Assembly: GCF_008298015.1 (NCBI RefSeq)
Contig: NZ_VTPX01000002.1
Span: 434,001-498,000, forward strand
Source: Salinicola corii
GTDB lineage: Bacteria > Pseudomonadota > Gammaproteobacteria > Pseudomonadales > Halomonadaceae
Reading direction: 5' to 3'
DNA length: 64,000 nucleotides
Position numbers and translations under genes: made by a program. Each line of letters starts with the position of its first letter. Positions within the stretch are counted from its first letter, which is position 1. Under the pieces are notes generated by a model. The model saw nothing but the letters and a program-made list of their open reading frames with translations. It made no database searches and was not told the origin of the DNA. Below are positions 51,676 through 56,707 of the stretch, in pieces.

Positions 51676-52383
51676 CTACAGCGACACCGTACGGCCGCGG
51701 ATCGGCATGAGTTTGCCATGGTCCATGATCGGCCCTGTCGGTTTACCATCGGGCGCGCCTGCGCTTGGCTCGATGCTGACGGTAAGTCTGATATTGTTCA
51801 ACTGCGTAAGCAGTTGCTTCGGCATTTGCGTCTTCATCTGTCCTTTGCTTGGTAGCATGCCCAGCGAGATAGGTGTGCCGTTATCCATTATCCACAACTC
51901 GCAAGCCTTGCCCTTTGGCATGGGGTCGGGATCGATGGCCTGGATCATCATCGTGCCGTCATTCGATGCGTTGACAATCCAACCAGGCTCCTGATTTCCG
52001 TAATTGATCACGAAGACATATTCGCCAGGCATCATTGCCGGTTCCTGTGGTGTCAGCGCGATCACCGTCAGGATCAGCGCCGCCGCCGTCGCGAGCCCGC
52101 TGAACGCCCGCCAGAAACCTAGTCGTTGCGACAGTCCGGTCTTCAGCCTCAGGCGCGTCGCGATATCTGGCCAAAGCCCTTTGGGAGGCGCGACGGGCTC
52201 CAGTTGCTGGTTGAAGAGTTGCAGCCGTTCGCGCCAGGTTTCGACGCTGTGCTGGAGATCCGCGCTGACCGCCAGCAGAGCCTCGAATTCGGCCCGCTGA
52301 TCGCCCGTCAGGGTGCCCAGGACGTATTCGCCGGCAGCCATCTCGCGCTCCTCGGGATCGGTCAGGCGAAACGTGTCATGCAT
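51676..52383 (-). CDS. Anti-sigma factor, RskA family
   Basis: 235 aa from the ATG at 52383. The cytosolic N-terminal ~95 residues (REMAAGEYVLGTLTG) form the sigma-binding domain; one transmembrane helix lies at about residues 98-115 (ATAAALILTVIAL); the rest is a periplasmic RskA domain ending in SIEPSAGAPDGKPTGPIM. It would hold the adjacent ECF sigma factor inactive. Its start overlaps the sigma gene by 22 nt, so they are translationally coupled. Confidence 0.9.
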   Translation of the reverse strand: MHDTFRLTDPEEREMAAGEYVLGTLTGDQRAEFEALLAVSADLQHSVETWRERLQLFNQQLEPVAPPKGLWPDIATRLRLKTGLSQRLGFWRAFSGLATAAALILTVIALTPQEPAMMPGEYVFVINYGNQEPGWIVNASNDGTMMIQAIDPDPMPKGKACELWIMDNGTPISLGMLPSKGQMKTQMPKQLLTQLNNIRLTVSIEPSAGAPDGKPTGPIMDHGKLMPIRGRTVSL

Positions 52384-52916
52384 GCTTTCAACCTCTCGAG
52401 GCCTCTTCGGACCCAGCTCTTGACGGTGCCCAGCGGCGTGCCCAGGTGGGATGCCAGATCGTGATGTGTCAGGCCCTCGAAAAATGCGAGTTCGAGGGCC
52501 TGACGCTGCTGCGTCGTCAATTCGGTCAAGCAAAGTTGAAGCGACTCTGCCTGTTGATTGATATCGCTCTCGCTCTCGACATCCGATGCGCTCGGCAGTG
52601 TCTCGATGATGGCGTCGCCTTCGGTCTCCTGTGGCCGTTGGCGCCTGAGCCAGTCGATACCGATGTTGCGCGTGAGCGTCGAAAGCCAGGTCATCGGCCG
52701 GGCACGACCGGCGTCGTACTGGCCGGCCACTTGCCACACGCGGAGGTATACCAGTTGCAGACAGTCCTGAGCCGCTGCTTCCTGCCTGACGATACGCAGC
52801 AACTGCGCATACAGATGCGGGCTGGTCGCGCGGTAGAGCTTTTCGAAGGCAGGGCCATCGCCGCGCGCGCAAGCCTGGAGATTGTCGATCAACACGTCAT
52901 GAGGCGGGTAGGCCAT
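52362..52916 (-). CDS. ECF sigma factor (SigK-like)
   Basis: 184 aa from the ATG at 52916; an upstream in-frame ATG would add 29 unrelated residues. Regions sigma-2 (LLRIVRQEAAAQDCLQLVYLRVW, residues about 43-70) and sigma-4 (LTTQQRQALELAFFEGLTHHDLA with the helix-turn-helix GTPLGTVKSWVRRGLERL) are intact. It pairs with the RskA-type anti-sigma factor overlapping its 3' end. The signal and regulon are unknown. It is divergent from the DAHP synthase leader. Confidence 0.9.
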   Translation of the reverse strand: MAYPPHDVLIDNLQACARGDGPAFEKLYRATSPHLYAQLLRIVRQEAAAQDCLQLVYLRVWQVAGQYDAGRARPMTWLSTLTRNIGIDWLRRQRPQETEGDAIIETLPSASDVESESDINQQAESLQLCLTELTTQQRQALELAFFEGLTHHDLASHLGTPLGTVKSWVRRGLERLKACMTRFA

Positions 52917-53021
52917 GAAAGTCCTTTGAATTCTTTCTTTTTCTTGGCTAGCAGTCTCGTCAACGAGATCGAACAAGTAAAGCCCAGAGGGAAGCCTGTC
53001 CACTGTTTGGCACCAAAAGAC

Positions 53022-53049
53022 TTGTCAAACCGTGCCGCCACGTTAGGAT
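53022..53049 (+). promoter_or_regulatory. Candidate promoter of the DAHP synthase leader
   Basis: TTGTCA (53022-53027) and TAGGAT (53044-53049), 16-nt spacing, 50 nt before the leader ORF. Confidence 0.55.
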
Positions 53050-53098
53050 AGAGCCACGACTTCATGCACAGCACGTTTGCGAGAAAGCGGAAAGCGAC

Positions 53099-53224
53099 AT
53101 GACCGAACGCCACGATTCACGTTTCATCGACACCACCAACGCCGTTGGCGGTGCGATGGCGTTTGCGTTCTTCGGTTATGGCTATTGGTTTAGGACTGGC
53201 GTGCCCGCCGGTTGGTCAACATGA
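53099..53224 (+). CDS. Leader peptide rich in Phe, Tyr and Trp (attenuator peptide)
   Basis: 41 aa: ATG at 53099, stop at 53222-53224. Residues 22-31 (codons 53162-53191) read FAFFGYGYWF: eight of ten residues are aromatic. Trp39 is a second Trp codon near the end. The next codon after the run is the rare AGG. An internal ATG at 53156 could start a 22-aa version; GGAAAG upstream of 53099 is a modest ribosome site. Position, just upstream of alternative RNA structures and a terminator before an aromatic-pathway gene, supports a regulatory leader peptide rather than a functional protein. Confidence 0.7.
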   Translation: MTERHDSRFIDTTNAVGGAMAFAFFGYGYWFRTGVPAGWST

Positions 53225-53264
53225 CCTGAACCCGCGAGGCACGCCCGGAACCGGGCTGCCTCCT

Positions 53265-53315
53265 CGCATCAAGAACCCCCGGATGGCAGGCCCACCCGGG
53301 GGTTCTCGCGTTTTT
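53265..53315 (+). terminator. Attenuator terminator of the DAHP synthase gene
   Basis: AGAACCCCCGG (53272-53282) pairs with CCGGGGGTTCT (53296-53306). CGC (53265-53267) can add pairs with GCG (53308-53310) just before TTTTT (53311-53315). It ends 40 nt before the structural gene. Confidence 0.75.
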
Positions 53316-53354
53316 AGGTCTCGATTCTTGAACATCACCTGGAATGAGATCGTT

Positions 53355-54458
53355 ATGGACGCTGCCACATCCGAATTGAAACCGGCCCAGTCGACACCGG
53401 CATCATCATCTTCCGTCAGAGCGCTGCCATTGCCGACGGCGCAGGAACTGCGTCAGAGATTGCCGTTGGGTCCAGCGCTCGAGGCTCGGATCGCCGCGAG
53501 CCGCGAGGCCATTCGGGCCATCGTCGAGGGTGAGGATGATCGCCTGCTGGTCGTCACCGGCCCTTGTTCGATACACGATCCTGTCGCGGCGCTGGAGTAT
53601 GCCGAGCGTCTGGCGGCACTCAATGAAGCACTGGGAGATCGACTGCTGCTGGTGATGCGGGTCTACGTCGAGAAGCCGCGCACCACCGTCGGTTGGAAAG
53701 GGCTGGCCTACGACCCCCACCTCGATGGCAGTGACGACATGGCCGCGGGTCTGGCCATGGCGAGACGGCTGATGCGAGATATTGCCGAGCTGGGCTTGCC
53801 GGTCGCGACGGAACTGCTGCAGCCGATGGCAGCGTCCTACTTCGACGATTTGCTGAGCTGGGTGGCAATCGGCGCCCGTACCACCGAATCCCAGATTCAT
53901 CGTGAACTCGCCAGCGGGCTGGCGGCGGCGGTAGGGTTCAAGAACGGCACTCAGGGCAATGTCGACGTCGCTATCGCCGCCATGCAATCGGCGGCCCATT
54001 CGCATCGCCACTTCGGTGTGACCGAAGACGGTGGCCCGGCGATGATCGAGACGCCGGGCAATTCTGCCACGCATCTGGTGCTTCGCGGTGGGCGGGACGG
54101 GCCCAATCACGATGCCGGGAGCGTTGCCGCCAGTCGCCGGGCGATGTCGCAGGCGGGACTCGAAGCGAGGATCATGGTCGACTGCAGTCATGCCAATTCG
54201 CACAAGGATCATCGACGCCAGACGGAAGTTCTCTACGATGTGCTGAAGCAGCGACTGGCTGGTGACCGAAGCCTGATCGGCGTGATGCTCGAAAGCCACC
54301 TGTTCGAAGGCAAGCAGGCGCTCAACCCCGCTGCGCTGCGCTACGGCGTATCGATCACCGACGCCTGCCTAGGCTGGGAGACTACCGAACAGCTATTGAT
54401 ACGGGTTGCCGCGGGGCTTGGGCAGGAGAGTGAAGAGCGCCGCCCGCAACAGAGTTGA
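53355..54458 (+). CDS. 3-deoxy-7-phosphoheptulonate synthase, class I (AroFGH type)
   Basis: 367 aa from the ATG at 53355. It condenses PEP and erythrose-4-phosphate, the first step to chorismate and Phe, Tyr, Trp. Signatures are VTGPCSIHDP, EKPRTTVGWKG, GARTTESQ and VGFKNGT. The C-terminal SLIGVMLESHLFEG and SITDACLGWETT segments resemble Trp-sensitive AroH more than AroF/AroG; feedback type is inferred only. Expression is probably controlled by the upstream aromatic leader peptide and terminator. It is convergent with the PAP2 gene. Confidence 0.93.
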   Translation: MDAATSELKPAQSTPASSSSVRALPLPTAQELRQRLPLGPALEARIAASREAIRAIVEGEDDRLLVVTGPCSIHDPVAALEYAERLAALNEALGDRLLLVMRVYVEKPRTTVGWKGLAYDPHLDGSDDMAAGLAMARRLMRDIAELGLPVATELLQPMAASYFDDLLSWVAIGARTTESQIHRELASGLAAAVGFKNGTQGNVDVAIAAMQSAAHSHRHFGVTEDGGPAMIETPGNSATHLVLRGGRDGPNHDAGSVAASRRAMSQAGLEARIMVDCSHANSHKDHRRQTEVLYDVLKQRLAGDRSLIGVMLESHLFEGKQALNPAALRYGVSITDACLGWETTEQLLIRVAAGLGQESEERRPQQS

Positions 54459-54571: not shown

Positions 54572-56707
54572 CTACTGGACCGTGGCGGCGATACCGCTGT
54601 CGCTATAGCTCAGCTCGACGTTGACATCGCCCGCATCCACGTTGCCGAAGGTACCACTCACGGTAGCGCCGTTGATCAGGGTGAATTTGGTGCCGGCGGT
54701 TGGCCCATCGTCAGCGAAATCCAGCTTCAGCGTGCCGCCTGCGATATAGACCTGCTGGCCGACGGTAATTTGGCTGTTGTCTTCATCCATGGACATCGCC
54801 AACGTGCCATTTTCCATGGTGAGGTTGCCGCCGATTTCCAGCGCCTTGTCATCGGCGGGATTGATCCGCAGTGTCCCGTTTTCGACGTACACGTCGCCCG
54901 TGCCGAAAGCGGAAGCGGAAGCGGCTTCCAGCGTACCGCCCTGCAACAGGATGCCACCGCTGTAGCTGTTGTCGCCGGTCAGGGTCAGCCGGCCGCTGTT
55001 GTCCTGGGTCAGTGTCAGCATGCCTTTGCCGTCAATATCGTTACGCCACCAGTCGTGGGCGTTGAAGCCACCTTCGCTGGCATCCATCGTCACACTGACA
55101 TCGCCATCGAAAGCGCCGTAGCCATCGGCGGCGGTGACCAGGTCCAGACGCCCCCAGCCGTTGCTGTCATCCAGAATCGGATAGCCGGAGTCGATTTCCG
55201 TGGTGGCCAGCACTGCGCGACGCTGCTCATCGCTCAGATAGGGCTGGCGCGACTTCAGCAGCGCTTCGGCACCTGCGGGCACGACCGGATCCTGACCGGC
55301 TTCGTCTTTGTTCTGAGACAGGCCATAGGTCAGACGCTGACGGTACAGCTTCTTGTTGGCGCCATGATCGTCGTAGTCGTTGTTGTCATAGACTGCCGTA
55401 TTGATCATGTTGCCATCGATCAGCCCTGTCTCGTCACTATCGTCGATGCTCTGGTGGGCGAACTCGTAAAGGCTCATGCCTTCGGCTCCTGCCATATCAC
55501 CGAAATACTGCTGGGCCTGCTCGGAGGCAGCTTCGGCTTCGCTCTCTCCACCATTATTCAAGGCGTAGCTGGCAACGCTCAGGGCGTGAATACGTCCGCC
55601 GATCACGTCGACCGGAGAGTGCATGCCCGCGACGATACGATCCTCGCCCAGTTGGGACCCCCGCGTCAGCATTGCCGAATAACGTTGCGGCAGGGCGTAG
55701 GCATAGGCCATCGCGGCGAGATAGCCGGCATTGGTATGGCCGCTGGGATAGCCGCCATCCTTGCGCCGGTTCTCGGTTTCGGCGGTATAGAGTCCGTCGG
55801 CTTCCTTCTCGGCGTCATGCGCGCGGCGCGAGCACATCAGGCCGGGCACGACCTCGACGCTACTGGTGTAGCGGTCGTAGGTAACCGTCGATGCGGTGCC
55901 TTCGCTGTCGGTACAGGTGTAATGCCTGTCGGTGCCGAGGAAGTCGATCTCGCCGCTATCGTTCATGCGCCACGGACGCGGTGTCGAGAAGATGTACTTG
56001 GAGGCGCTGGTGGAGGCGGGCGAGCGCTGGCGGAAGAGATCGACCAGGGAGACGACGGCGCCCAGATCGGCGCTTGTGTTGCCAGCGAAGGCGATATTGT
56101 CATTGTGGGAAGATTGGTAGTTGGCGTCGACCAGGACCTGATCCACTGTCGGCACCGGGATGTCCACATAGGCGTCGGAGCCTTCGACATAGGCTTCGGT
56201 CAAGGGGCCATAGCCGTCGATGACGCTATAGTTTTTGCTGCGCTGATCGTCCAGGAAGGCCAGGATGGCCTGCTCGTCGGTGCGATTCTGCGTCACATCG
56301 ACGACGTACTGGATATTCTCCTTCCAGATCTTGGGGTCGAGGATCGGATCAGGCAGATAATCATCAGGGCCGTTGCCATTGGCGGCATTCTGCCAAGTCT
56401 CGGAGGTCCCATGCCAGATTTCGTTGATTCCGCGTAGTAGATAGGCGATGGGGTTTTGGCCAAGCGTATAGCGTAGGCTGCCGTCGGCATTGTTCTCGGC
56501 GTTATCAACCGAAGGCAGCGGATAGTCGACCTGTGGAATATCCACCGTCTGCTCTGAGCCTAATCCGGTAGGCTTGGCCGGCTTGGTGGCGGCCGATGAG
56601 TCGTCGTGGTCATGATCGTCGTCCGAACAACCAGCCAGCGCTAGTGCTGTCGCGGCCACGATGGCCAGGTACAAATGGTGTTTCTTCAACTTGATTGCGT
56701 CGCTCAT
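54572..56707 (-). CDS. PAP2-family acid phosphatase lipoprotein with autotransporter-type beta repeats
   Basis: 711 aa. The N terminus is a lipoprotein signal (LALAGC, Cys27; +2 Ser predicts outer-membrane sorting) followed by a His/Asp-rich linker. The class A phosphatase catalytic motifs are K237-x6-RP (KYIFSTPRP), PSGH at 321-324 and R357-x5-H363-x3-D367. The last ~165 residues carry repeats like the autotransporter-associated beta strand (GDNSYSGGILLQGGTLEAAS) but no translocator barrel. It is the first gene beyond gspN on the same strand and is a candidate secreted substrate. Confidence 0.85.
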   Translation of the reverse strand: MSDAIKLKKHHLYLAIVAATALALAGCSDDDHDHDDSSAATKPAKPTGLGSEQTVDIPQVDYPLPSVDNAENNADGSLRYTLGQNPIAYLLRGINEIWHGTSETWQNAANGNGPDDYLPDPILDPKIWKENIQYVVDVTQNRTDEQAILAFLDDQRSKNYSVIDGYGPLTEAYVEGSDAYVDIPVPTVDQVLVDANYQSSHNDNIAFAGNTSADLGAVVSLVDLFRQRSPASTSASKYIFSTPRPWRMNDSGEIDFLGTDRHYTCTDSEGTASTVTYDRYTSSVEVVPGLMCSRRAHDAEKEADGLYTAETENRRKDGGYPSGHTNAGYLAAMAYAYALPQRYSAMLTRGSQLGEDRIVAGMHSPVDVIGGRIHALSVASYALNNGGESEAEAASEQAQQYFGDMAGAEGMSLYEFAHQSIDDSDETGLIDGNMINTAVYDNNDYDDHGANKKLYRQRLTYGLSQNKDEAGQDPVVPAGAEALLKSRQPYLSDEQRRAVLATTEIDSGYPILDDSNGWGRLDLVTAADGYGAFDGDVSVTMDASEGGFNAHDWWRNDIDGKGMLTLTQDNSGRLTLTGDNSYSGGILLQGGTLEAASASAFGTGDVYVENGTLRINPADDKALEIGGNLTMENGTLAMSMDEDNSQITVGQQVYIAGGTLKLDFADDGPTAGTKFTLINGATVSGTFGNVDAGDVNVELSYSDSGIAATVQ

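Follow-up and report, generated by a model that had tools for sequence, protein, structure and literature searches.

A candidate attenuator sensing Phe, Tyr, and Trp upstream of a DAHP synthase gene in Salinicola corii and its likeness to the Pseudomonas RNA P15

Introduction

The trpL and pheL leaders of E. coli, represented in Rfam as Trp_leader and Phe_leader, carry control codons, alternative hairpins, and a terminator placed before the structural gene. Each of the two responds to a single amino acid, whereas in thrL and ilvL one leader senses several. The Rfam family RF00627, named "Pseudomonas sRNA P15", presumably comes from the work of Livny et al. Passages of Livny et al. 2008 guess from synteny with a TPP riboswitch that P15 is itself a riboswitch (PMC2527527), and passages of a GacA sRNA study name P15 only among the sRNAs that were not recovered (PMC2375449).

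Leaders have also been predicted directly before DAHP synthase genes. According to the sections describing it, C. glutamicum aroF is preceded by a predicted leader peptide containing Phe-Tyr-Phe (PMC4046766), and the sections on the Acholeplasma uORFC-13-1 motif describe a uORF and a terminator before aroF, with attenuation as the predicted outcome (PMC8632094).

Here, we analyze a 64,000-nt stretch of Salinicola corii DNA (the window), in which an initial annotation placed an aromatic leader-peptide attenuator before a DAHP synthase gene. We consider it highly likely, judging from sequence, that this leader is a ribosome-mediated transcription attenuator, which would control the DAHP synthase gene by sensing how far the tRNAs for Phe, Tyr, and Trp are charged. 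It has the same working parts as trpL and pheL but differs in its antiterminator, which is built from an upstream arm and the terminator loop. With thrL and ilvL it would share the sensing of several amino acids, those leaders serving other amino acids and other operons; the mixing of codons, which the initial annotation set against the single-amino-acid leaders, thus has precedent. The C. glutamicum leader, likened here by its description, belongs to Actinobacteria, and the sections concerned mention no Trp. The uORFC-13-1 motif differs in that its U-run codes for Phe only, and its 24 representatives come, in the sections describing it, from one genus and environmental sequences.

Results

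The aroF gene (53355–54458, plus strand) encodes a 367-aa DAHP synthase (3-deoxy-7-phosphoheptulonate synthase), identified by the NCBIfam models NF009395 (510 bits; cut-off 343) and TIGR00034 (450 bits; cut-off 173) and by Pfam PF00793, for which the 4.66-Mb genome holds three matches. The nearest named relatives of this AroF are two Salinicola salarius records at 92–93%. The enzyme makes the start of the pathway leading to the amino acids that the leader would sense, as expected of a gene under attenuation by them. The aroF ATG lies at 53355, with the leader element (53099–53315) ending 40 nt upstream. A promoter-like element, TTGTCA-16-TAGGAT (53022–53049, plus strand), was the single one found by scanning (0.6 expected by chance); it is largely kept across 14 aligned Salinicola-clade loci, and similar elements are seen by eye in two further loci (L016 and L057). 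This largely conserved element precedes the leader ORF, so a transcription start ahead of that ORF is probable; a start downstream of 53224 would have been at odds with the initial annotation.

For the two other DAHP synthase copies of the genome, scanning ~1,000 bases upstream showed no aromatic leader before the second and, before the third, one weak aromatic stretch that is unlike a leader. By eye, the minus strand divergent to the aroF leader carries an ORF resembling an ECF sigma factor followed by an anti-sigma-like ORF (jointly assigned to 52362–53003 and 51676–52872). Downstream of aroF, and in the opposite direction, lies a large secreted-looking ORF (54572–56707, minus strand), with a stretch recalling PAP2-type phosphatases and an autotransporter-like end, likewise assigned by eye.

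The leader ORF, uORF1 (MTERHDSRFIDTTNAVGGAMAFAFFGYGYWFRTGVPAGWST; 53099–53224, plus strand), is a predicted short ORF of 41 codons in which codons for the pathway products are clustered, as in an attenuator. Residues 22–31 (53162–53191, plus strand) read FAFFGYGYWF, the final Phe codon being TTT; direct reading bears out the initial annotation on the length of the ORF and on the position of this run. FAFFGYGYWF is the sole stretch in the window, counting both strands, in which at least 7 of 10 residues are Phe, Tyr, or Trp, and 20 first-order Markov copies of the window contain none, which speaks against a chance occurrence. Codon 32 is AGG, to which the initial annotation had drawn attention; nothing marks it as special, the same codon being AGC in 144 of 211 scored loci and AGG in 21.

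The leader RNA (53056–53315) folds at −119.2 kcal/mol, compared with −94.3 kcal/mol (sd 5.0) for shuffled sequences, a difference of 5 SD. Downstream of the control codons, folding and covariation point to mutually exclusive pairings, all on the plus strand. Segment A (GGCGTGCC, 53198–53205) and segment B (GGCACGCC, 53238–53245) are exact complements. B has an alternative partner in segment C (GGGCTGCC, 53253–53260), with which it forms the B:C hairpin (53236–53262) by pairing of 53236–53247 with 53252–53262. C in turn has an antiterminator partner, C' (GGCAGGCCC, 53285–53293), located in the terminator loop, the C:C' pairing comprising eight pairs and one bulged G. By eye, a further segment 1 (GGTTTAGG, 53187–53194) is able to pair with 53225–53232 (CCTGAACC). 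A:B, B:C, and C:C' were all found on direct reading at the positions given by the initial annotation.

The terminator-like hairpin (53272–53306, plus strand), read from sequence and folding, has an 11-bp stem with arms at 53272–53282 and 53296–53306 and is followed by a U-run at 53311–53315; the stretch 53265–53315 folds at −27.6 kcal/mol. The initial annotation called this terminator strong. The 11-pair hairpin and the run T53311–53315 are indeed present, but the U-run is short and displaced, and a simple terminator scan of the leader found none (0.9 expected by chance) because the U-run starts 4 nt past the stem. Most Salinicola-clade relatives have only TTT at the U-run position. A simple search for a terminator-like hairpin followed by a T-run succeeded in 212 of the 225 loci; among the 13 misses, one inspected locus (L023) has the hairpin with a poor T-run.

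From these parts, their conservation, and their covarying pairs, all of which are observed, we infer how stalling, termination, and the response to amino acids would proceed. Transcription would begin slightly downstream of 53049, and a ribosome would translate uORF1. When an aromatic tRNA is scarce, the ribosome would wait within codons 22–31, its front edge lying at or before ~53198 for codons 22–30 and about three bases further for Phe31. The waiting ribosome would leave A free to pair with B, making B unavailable to C, so that C would pair with C' in the loop ahead of synthesis of the right terminator arm, letting the polymerase continue into aroF. When charged tRNA is at hand for all three amino acids, the ribosome would reach the stop codon at 53222 and cover A; B would then pair with C, the terminator would fold, and a short transcript would end near 53315. 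The leader would thus very probably raise the first enzyme of aromatic amino-acid synthesis upon aromatic shortage. A begins 12 nt past the first base of the Trp codon, a spacing that by analogy is about the reach of a ribosome holding this codon in its A site, the reach being taken from the usual toeprint distance.

Folding of modeled transcripts, which end at the terminator loop and whose 5' part is cut back to the ribosome front edge, yields for the window the switch that the initial annotation predicted. With the ribosome before Trp30, A:B and C:C' are predicted to form; with the ribosome at the stop codon, B:C is. The upstream-to-loop pairs number 10.96 in the stalled state versus 5.96 at the stop codon. 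Without a ribosome they number 12.08, so the model does not predict termination in the absence of translation. Averaged over 66 representatives, the same measure is 8.12 stalled, 6.41 at the stop codon, and 7.23 with no ribosome; the stalled value exceeds the stop value by more than one pair in 35 of these loci, the reverse holds in 1, and the two lie within one pair in 30. If the modeled transcript of the window extends through the right terminator arm, its best fold contains the terminator in each of the three ribosome states, even with A free. Because the terminator wins at equilibrium, antitermination would have to be kinetic.

A DAHP synthase is present in all 151 Halomonadaceae genomes searched, comprising 133 with an aroF orthologue (E 1e-118 or better) and 18 with only a more distant match. 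With a looser pattern, an aromatic leader ORF is found at 133/133 Halomonadaceae orthologue loci, 80/80 named loci, and 15/15 P15 loci; these sets share species and three loci and amount to 225 loci overall. A stricter first pattern had recovered it in 127/133, missing six variants such as CYRAGYWRWFT and GYRQGNYWF. The 212 loci with a placed terminator hold 188 distinct leader strings. Loss of the leader ORF in related genomes, which the initial annotation had named as evidence that would count against it, is thus seen at none of the 133 Halomonadaceae loci.

Variant leaders were observed. Five loci (L134, L139, L145, L151, and L045) have GYWRWF leaders, in which an Arg interrupts the aromatic motif, as it does in the WRF of the second leader ORF described below, and four of the five lack that second ORF by pattern. 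In L094, L100, L179, L181, and L184, leaders of the FWYGYFM type end like FWYGYFMTGVPAAMS or WYGYFMTGVPAAMS; the Trp-Phe pair is lost and the rest of the leader is retained.

The 18 distinct Salinicola-clade rows show no variation in segments A, B, and C, which makes the clade uninformative on pairing. The covariation set consists of 66 representatives, left after thinning 210 loci by shared 8-mers, in which the duplex energy of each arm with its own partner was compared with that for other loci's partners, relatedness being uncorrected. For A:B, the mean is −20.54 with own partners versus −16.98 (sd 0.35) with permuted ones; for C:C', it is −16.35 versus −13.95 (sd 0.25). In neither case were any of 20,000 permutations as good, and after double-centring 63/66 loci fall below zero for A:B and 59/66 for C:C'. 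Three control pairings gave no signal in the 66 representatives (z 0.3 to 0.7). A first C:C' test, with loop windows of unequal length, also gave 0/20,000 permutations, yet only 34/66 loci beat their own row mean; the second test used fixed windows and controls.

Compensated types are visible by eye. A/B occurs as GGCGTGCC/GGCACGCC, GGTGTGCC/GGCACACC, GGTGCGCC/GGCGCACC, and the swapped GGCACGCC/GGCGTGCC, and C/C' as GGGTTGCC/GGCAACCC, GGGCTGCC/GGCAGCCC, GTGCTGCC/GGCAGCAC, and GGTTGCC/GGTAACC. The compensatory stem changes that the initial annotation proposed to look for in relatives are thus present, with A:B and C:C' covarying strongly across the 66 representatives.

Phe, Tyr, and Trp all occur within the last 12 leader residues in 211/211 scored loci, which were chosen by a Trp-Phe motif that requires Trp and nearly always Phe, but not Tyr; at the level of sequence, this supports the earlier proposal that one leader would sense all three. 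The codon after Trp is TTT in 209/211 loci, whereas TTT makes up 5.4% of the 497 Phe codons counted in 126 aroF genes. These patterns bear on a rival in which the nascent leader peptide arrests the ribosome on binding a free aromatic amino acid, instead of the ribosome waiting for charged tRNA; TnaC with Trp is the model for such arrest. In favor of arrest, YWF at the end of the run is more constant than any other part of the peptide, and more than plain codon counting would need. The aromatic residues upstream of it, however, keep a high total despite changes in their order and number, as codon counting would have it, and the TTT bias speaks for codons or RNA pairing and not for the peptide. 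Arrest by plenty would, moreover, leave A free and raise expression at times of abundant product, the opposite of what suits a biosynthetic gene. We regard peptide arrest as very unlikely and retain codon-dependent stalling on uncharged tRNA as the preferred reading.

A search of 601 bases aligned the whole RF00627 model (positions 1–119 of 119) with 53167–53302 (plus strand), at E 0.0019 and with a score of 26.6 bits that falls short of the 70-bit gathering score. Three other Halomonadaceae score 40.2, 30.1, and 28.8 bits. With a cut-off of E 0.001, 15 of 194 genomes of the order gave a match, the window's own not being among them, and 10 of the 15 exceed the gathering score. Although the search was blind to context, each of the 15 matches has a DAHP synthase gene directly downstream and carries a leader peptide. 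Ten further loci, six matching above threshold and four not, add no evidence from context because they were chosen by AroF or by an earlier P15 match.

P15 and the window element share the full-length alignment, a leader peptide (for example, ...FGYWFS), a terminator-like hairpin, and pairings of the same kind, and the window has the anatomy and genomic place of the strong P15 members. They differ in the sequences of A, B, and C, by compensated changes, and in that P15 is catalogued as an sRNA gene. The window element looks homologous to RF00627. In our reading, P15 is the terminated leader of aroF: the Pseudomonas counterpart of the short transcript would be the RNA catalogued under this name, and we infer that the RNA originally detected was such a product. 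The RF00627 type "Gene" looks wrong, and a cis-regulatory leader type looks the better fit.

Taken literally, "sRNA P15" would instead be a free-standing, trans-acting sRNA released by a constitutive terminator, with the leader ORF incidental. Its Rfam type, a gene and not a cis-regulatory element, speaks for this, and a terminated leader RNA could additionally act in trans; the location of 15/15 P15 matches upstream of DAHP synthase, the conserved aromatic ORF, and the covarying competing pairings nevertheless make it extremely unlikely. The chance of a metabolite riboswitch, as suggested for P15 in passages of Livny et al. 2008 (PMC2527527), is next to negligible: the cis location and alternative structures would suit one, but neither a T-box nor any other known riboswitch has an Rfam match in 52900–53500 of the window at E up to 5, P15 is the only Rfam family reaching its gathering score in the ten relatives' loci, and the conservation seen lies in codons and short complementary arms, without a noticeable conserved core for ligand binding. 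The attenuator is hence the reading carried forward. Trp_leader and Phe_leader give no match in the window leader at E up to 5. Other weak Rfam matches (His_leader on both strands; P15, STnc310, and flavi_FSE on the minus strand) lie below gathering scores and were set aside as chance hairpins.

Most relatives have a further small ORF (uORF2) between the terminator and aroF, in which TGG CGA TTT (Trp-Arg-Phe) is preceded by aromatic residues. By pattern, uORF2 occurs at 105/133 family loci, 76/80 named loci, and 13/15 P15 loci; none of the 18 family-set loci from the window's genus shows the pattern, nor do L049–L052 and ten other family loci. L132, which the pattern missed, has a WRY variant instead of WRF, so the true count is at least 106/133. 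A uORF2 with TGGCGATTTA is seen in L004–L010, L012–L014, L016–L018, and most of L035–L228, and is absent from the window. Since other Halomonadaceae have uORF2, its loss in Salinicola is likely. The TGG CGA TTT motif is highly conserved, and its Arg and Phe codons are rare in these aroF genes: CGA occurs in 190/191 second ORFs versus 4.2% of Arg codons in aroF, the uORF2 counts being biased because the search pattern contains those codons.

In many lineages, an H-type pseudoknot pattern lies 6 nt after the codon that follows TGG CGA TTT. A loose search fits 67/93 representatives, of which 62 were analyzed and five left out. Across the 62 loci, the arms a-b-a'-b' give one helix of 7 pairs and another of 6 that cross each other, the loops measuring 8, 1, and 10 nt, and 98.0% of cells are paired, a value partly built in by picking the sequences by pattern. 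Changes on both sides affect 5/13 pairs (as many in 1/500 shuffles) and 8 cells (0/500), and the covariation score is reached in 16/500 shuffles. Slid versions pair 21–54% of cells and have 0–3 two-sided pairs, although the +3 slide has 18 such cells versus the real 8. The pair of columns 21/45 is broken in 12/62, and the WRF motif stands without the pseudoknot pattern in loci such as L097 (Stutzerimonas) and L116 (P. citronellolis). The covarying pattern was seen in Halomonas-like and P. fluorescens/putida-like loci, where the inner arm often reads CACCTCC, the letters of the 16S rRNA anti-Shine-Dalgarno tail.

Among 78 of the 93 representatives, the uORF2 stop lies close to the aroF start in 36, at most 11 nt ahead of it or 1 nt past it, and 38–52 nt before that start in 25, with other distances in 17; script-picked starts are plainly wrong in a few of these (L063, L078, and L209). 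Seven leader peptides (three first and four second) gave nothing in NCBIfam and two sub-threshold matches in Pfam. A model of the pseudoknot region found 1/369 genomes of the class, a Halomonadaceae, under strict filters that lose weak matches, and in the window's own genome it gave chance-level matches only (E 1.96 and 3.54). Programmed frameshifting at uORF2, considered on account of the pseudoknot, is not supported: by eye, no slippery heptamer was recognized in TGGCGATTTAGC, and the frame relative to aroF varies.

Tentatively, and with some doubt, we propose that the aroF leader of most Halomonadaceae and Pseudomonas is a two-stage sensor, in which the attenuator is followed by uORF2 acting at translation and of which Salinicola has lost the second stage. 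In that stage, codon- or peptide-dependent pausing against the pseudoknot would gate the hand-over of ribosomes to aroF.

Discussion

The type of mechanism described here is already known, and the finding of the initial annotation holds, with a wider reach than it was given there. The parts that appear new are the proposed sensing of three aromatic amino acids at a DAHP synthase, the reading of P15 as an aroF leader, and the tandem second leader, though their priority is uncertain. In the open-access literature searched, we recognized no attenuator of the leader-peptide type before aroF in Pseudomonas or Halomonadaceae, no such reading of P15, and no uORF2.

A comparable arrangement is found in a further family of the order (L250, L251, L257, L259, and L260), where a leader peptide, FFWWFGYGFYFSQ or similar, lies ~210–280 nt upstream of a DAHP synthase gene. 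By eye, it has in common with the window the three aromatic residues, a terminator, and a C:C'-like pair, GGCTGCC/GGTAGCC. Its DAHP synthase is more distant, being 54–55% identical to that of the window, and no second leader ORF was seen. The leader at these loci may be homologous to, or convergent with, that of the window.

DAHP synthase is a standard target when strains are engineered for aromatic compounds, and a missed attenuator at this gene therefore has practical weight. The analysis also exposes a conserved second leader ORF with a pseudoknot pattern, for which ten loci gave no Rfam family of their own and the peptides searched gave none in NCBIfam or Pfam above threshold. For an RNA long catalogued as a Pseudomonas sRNA, the attenuator supplies a testable function, and it would explain how the committed step of aromatic synthesis could respond to all three end products together.
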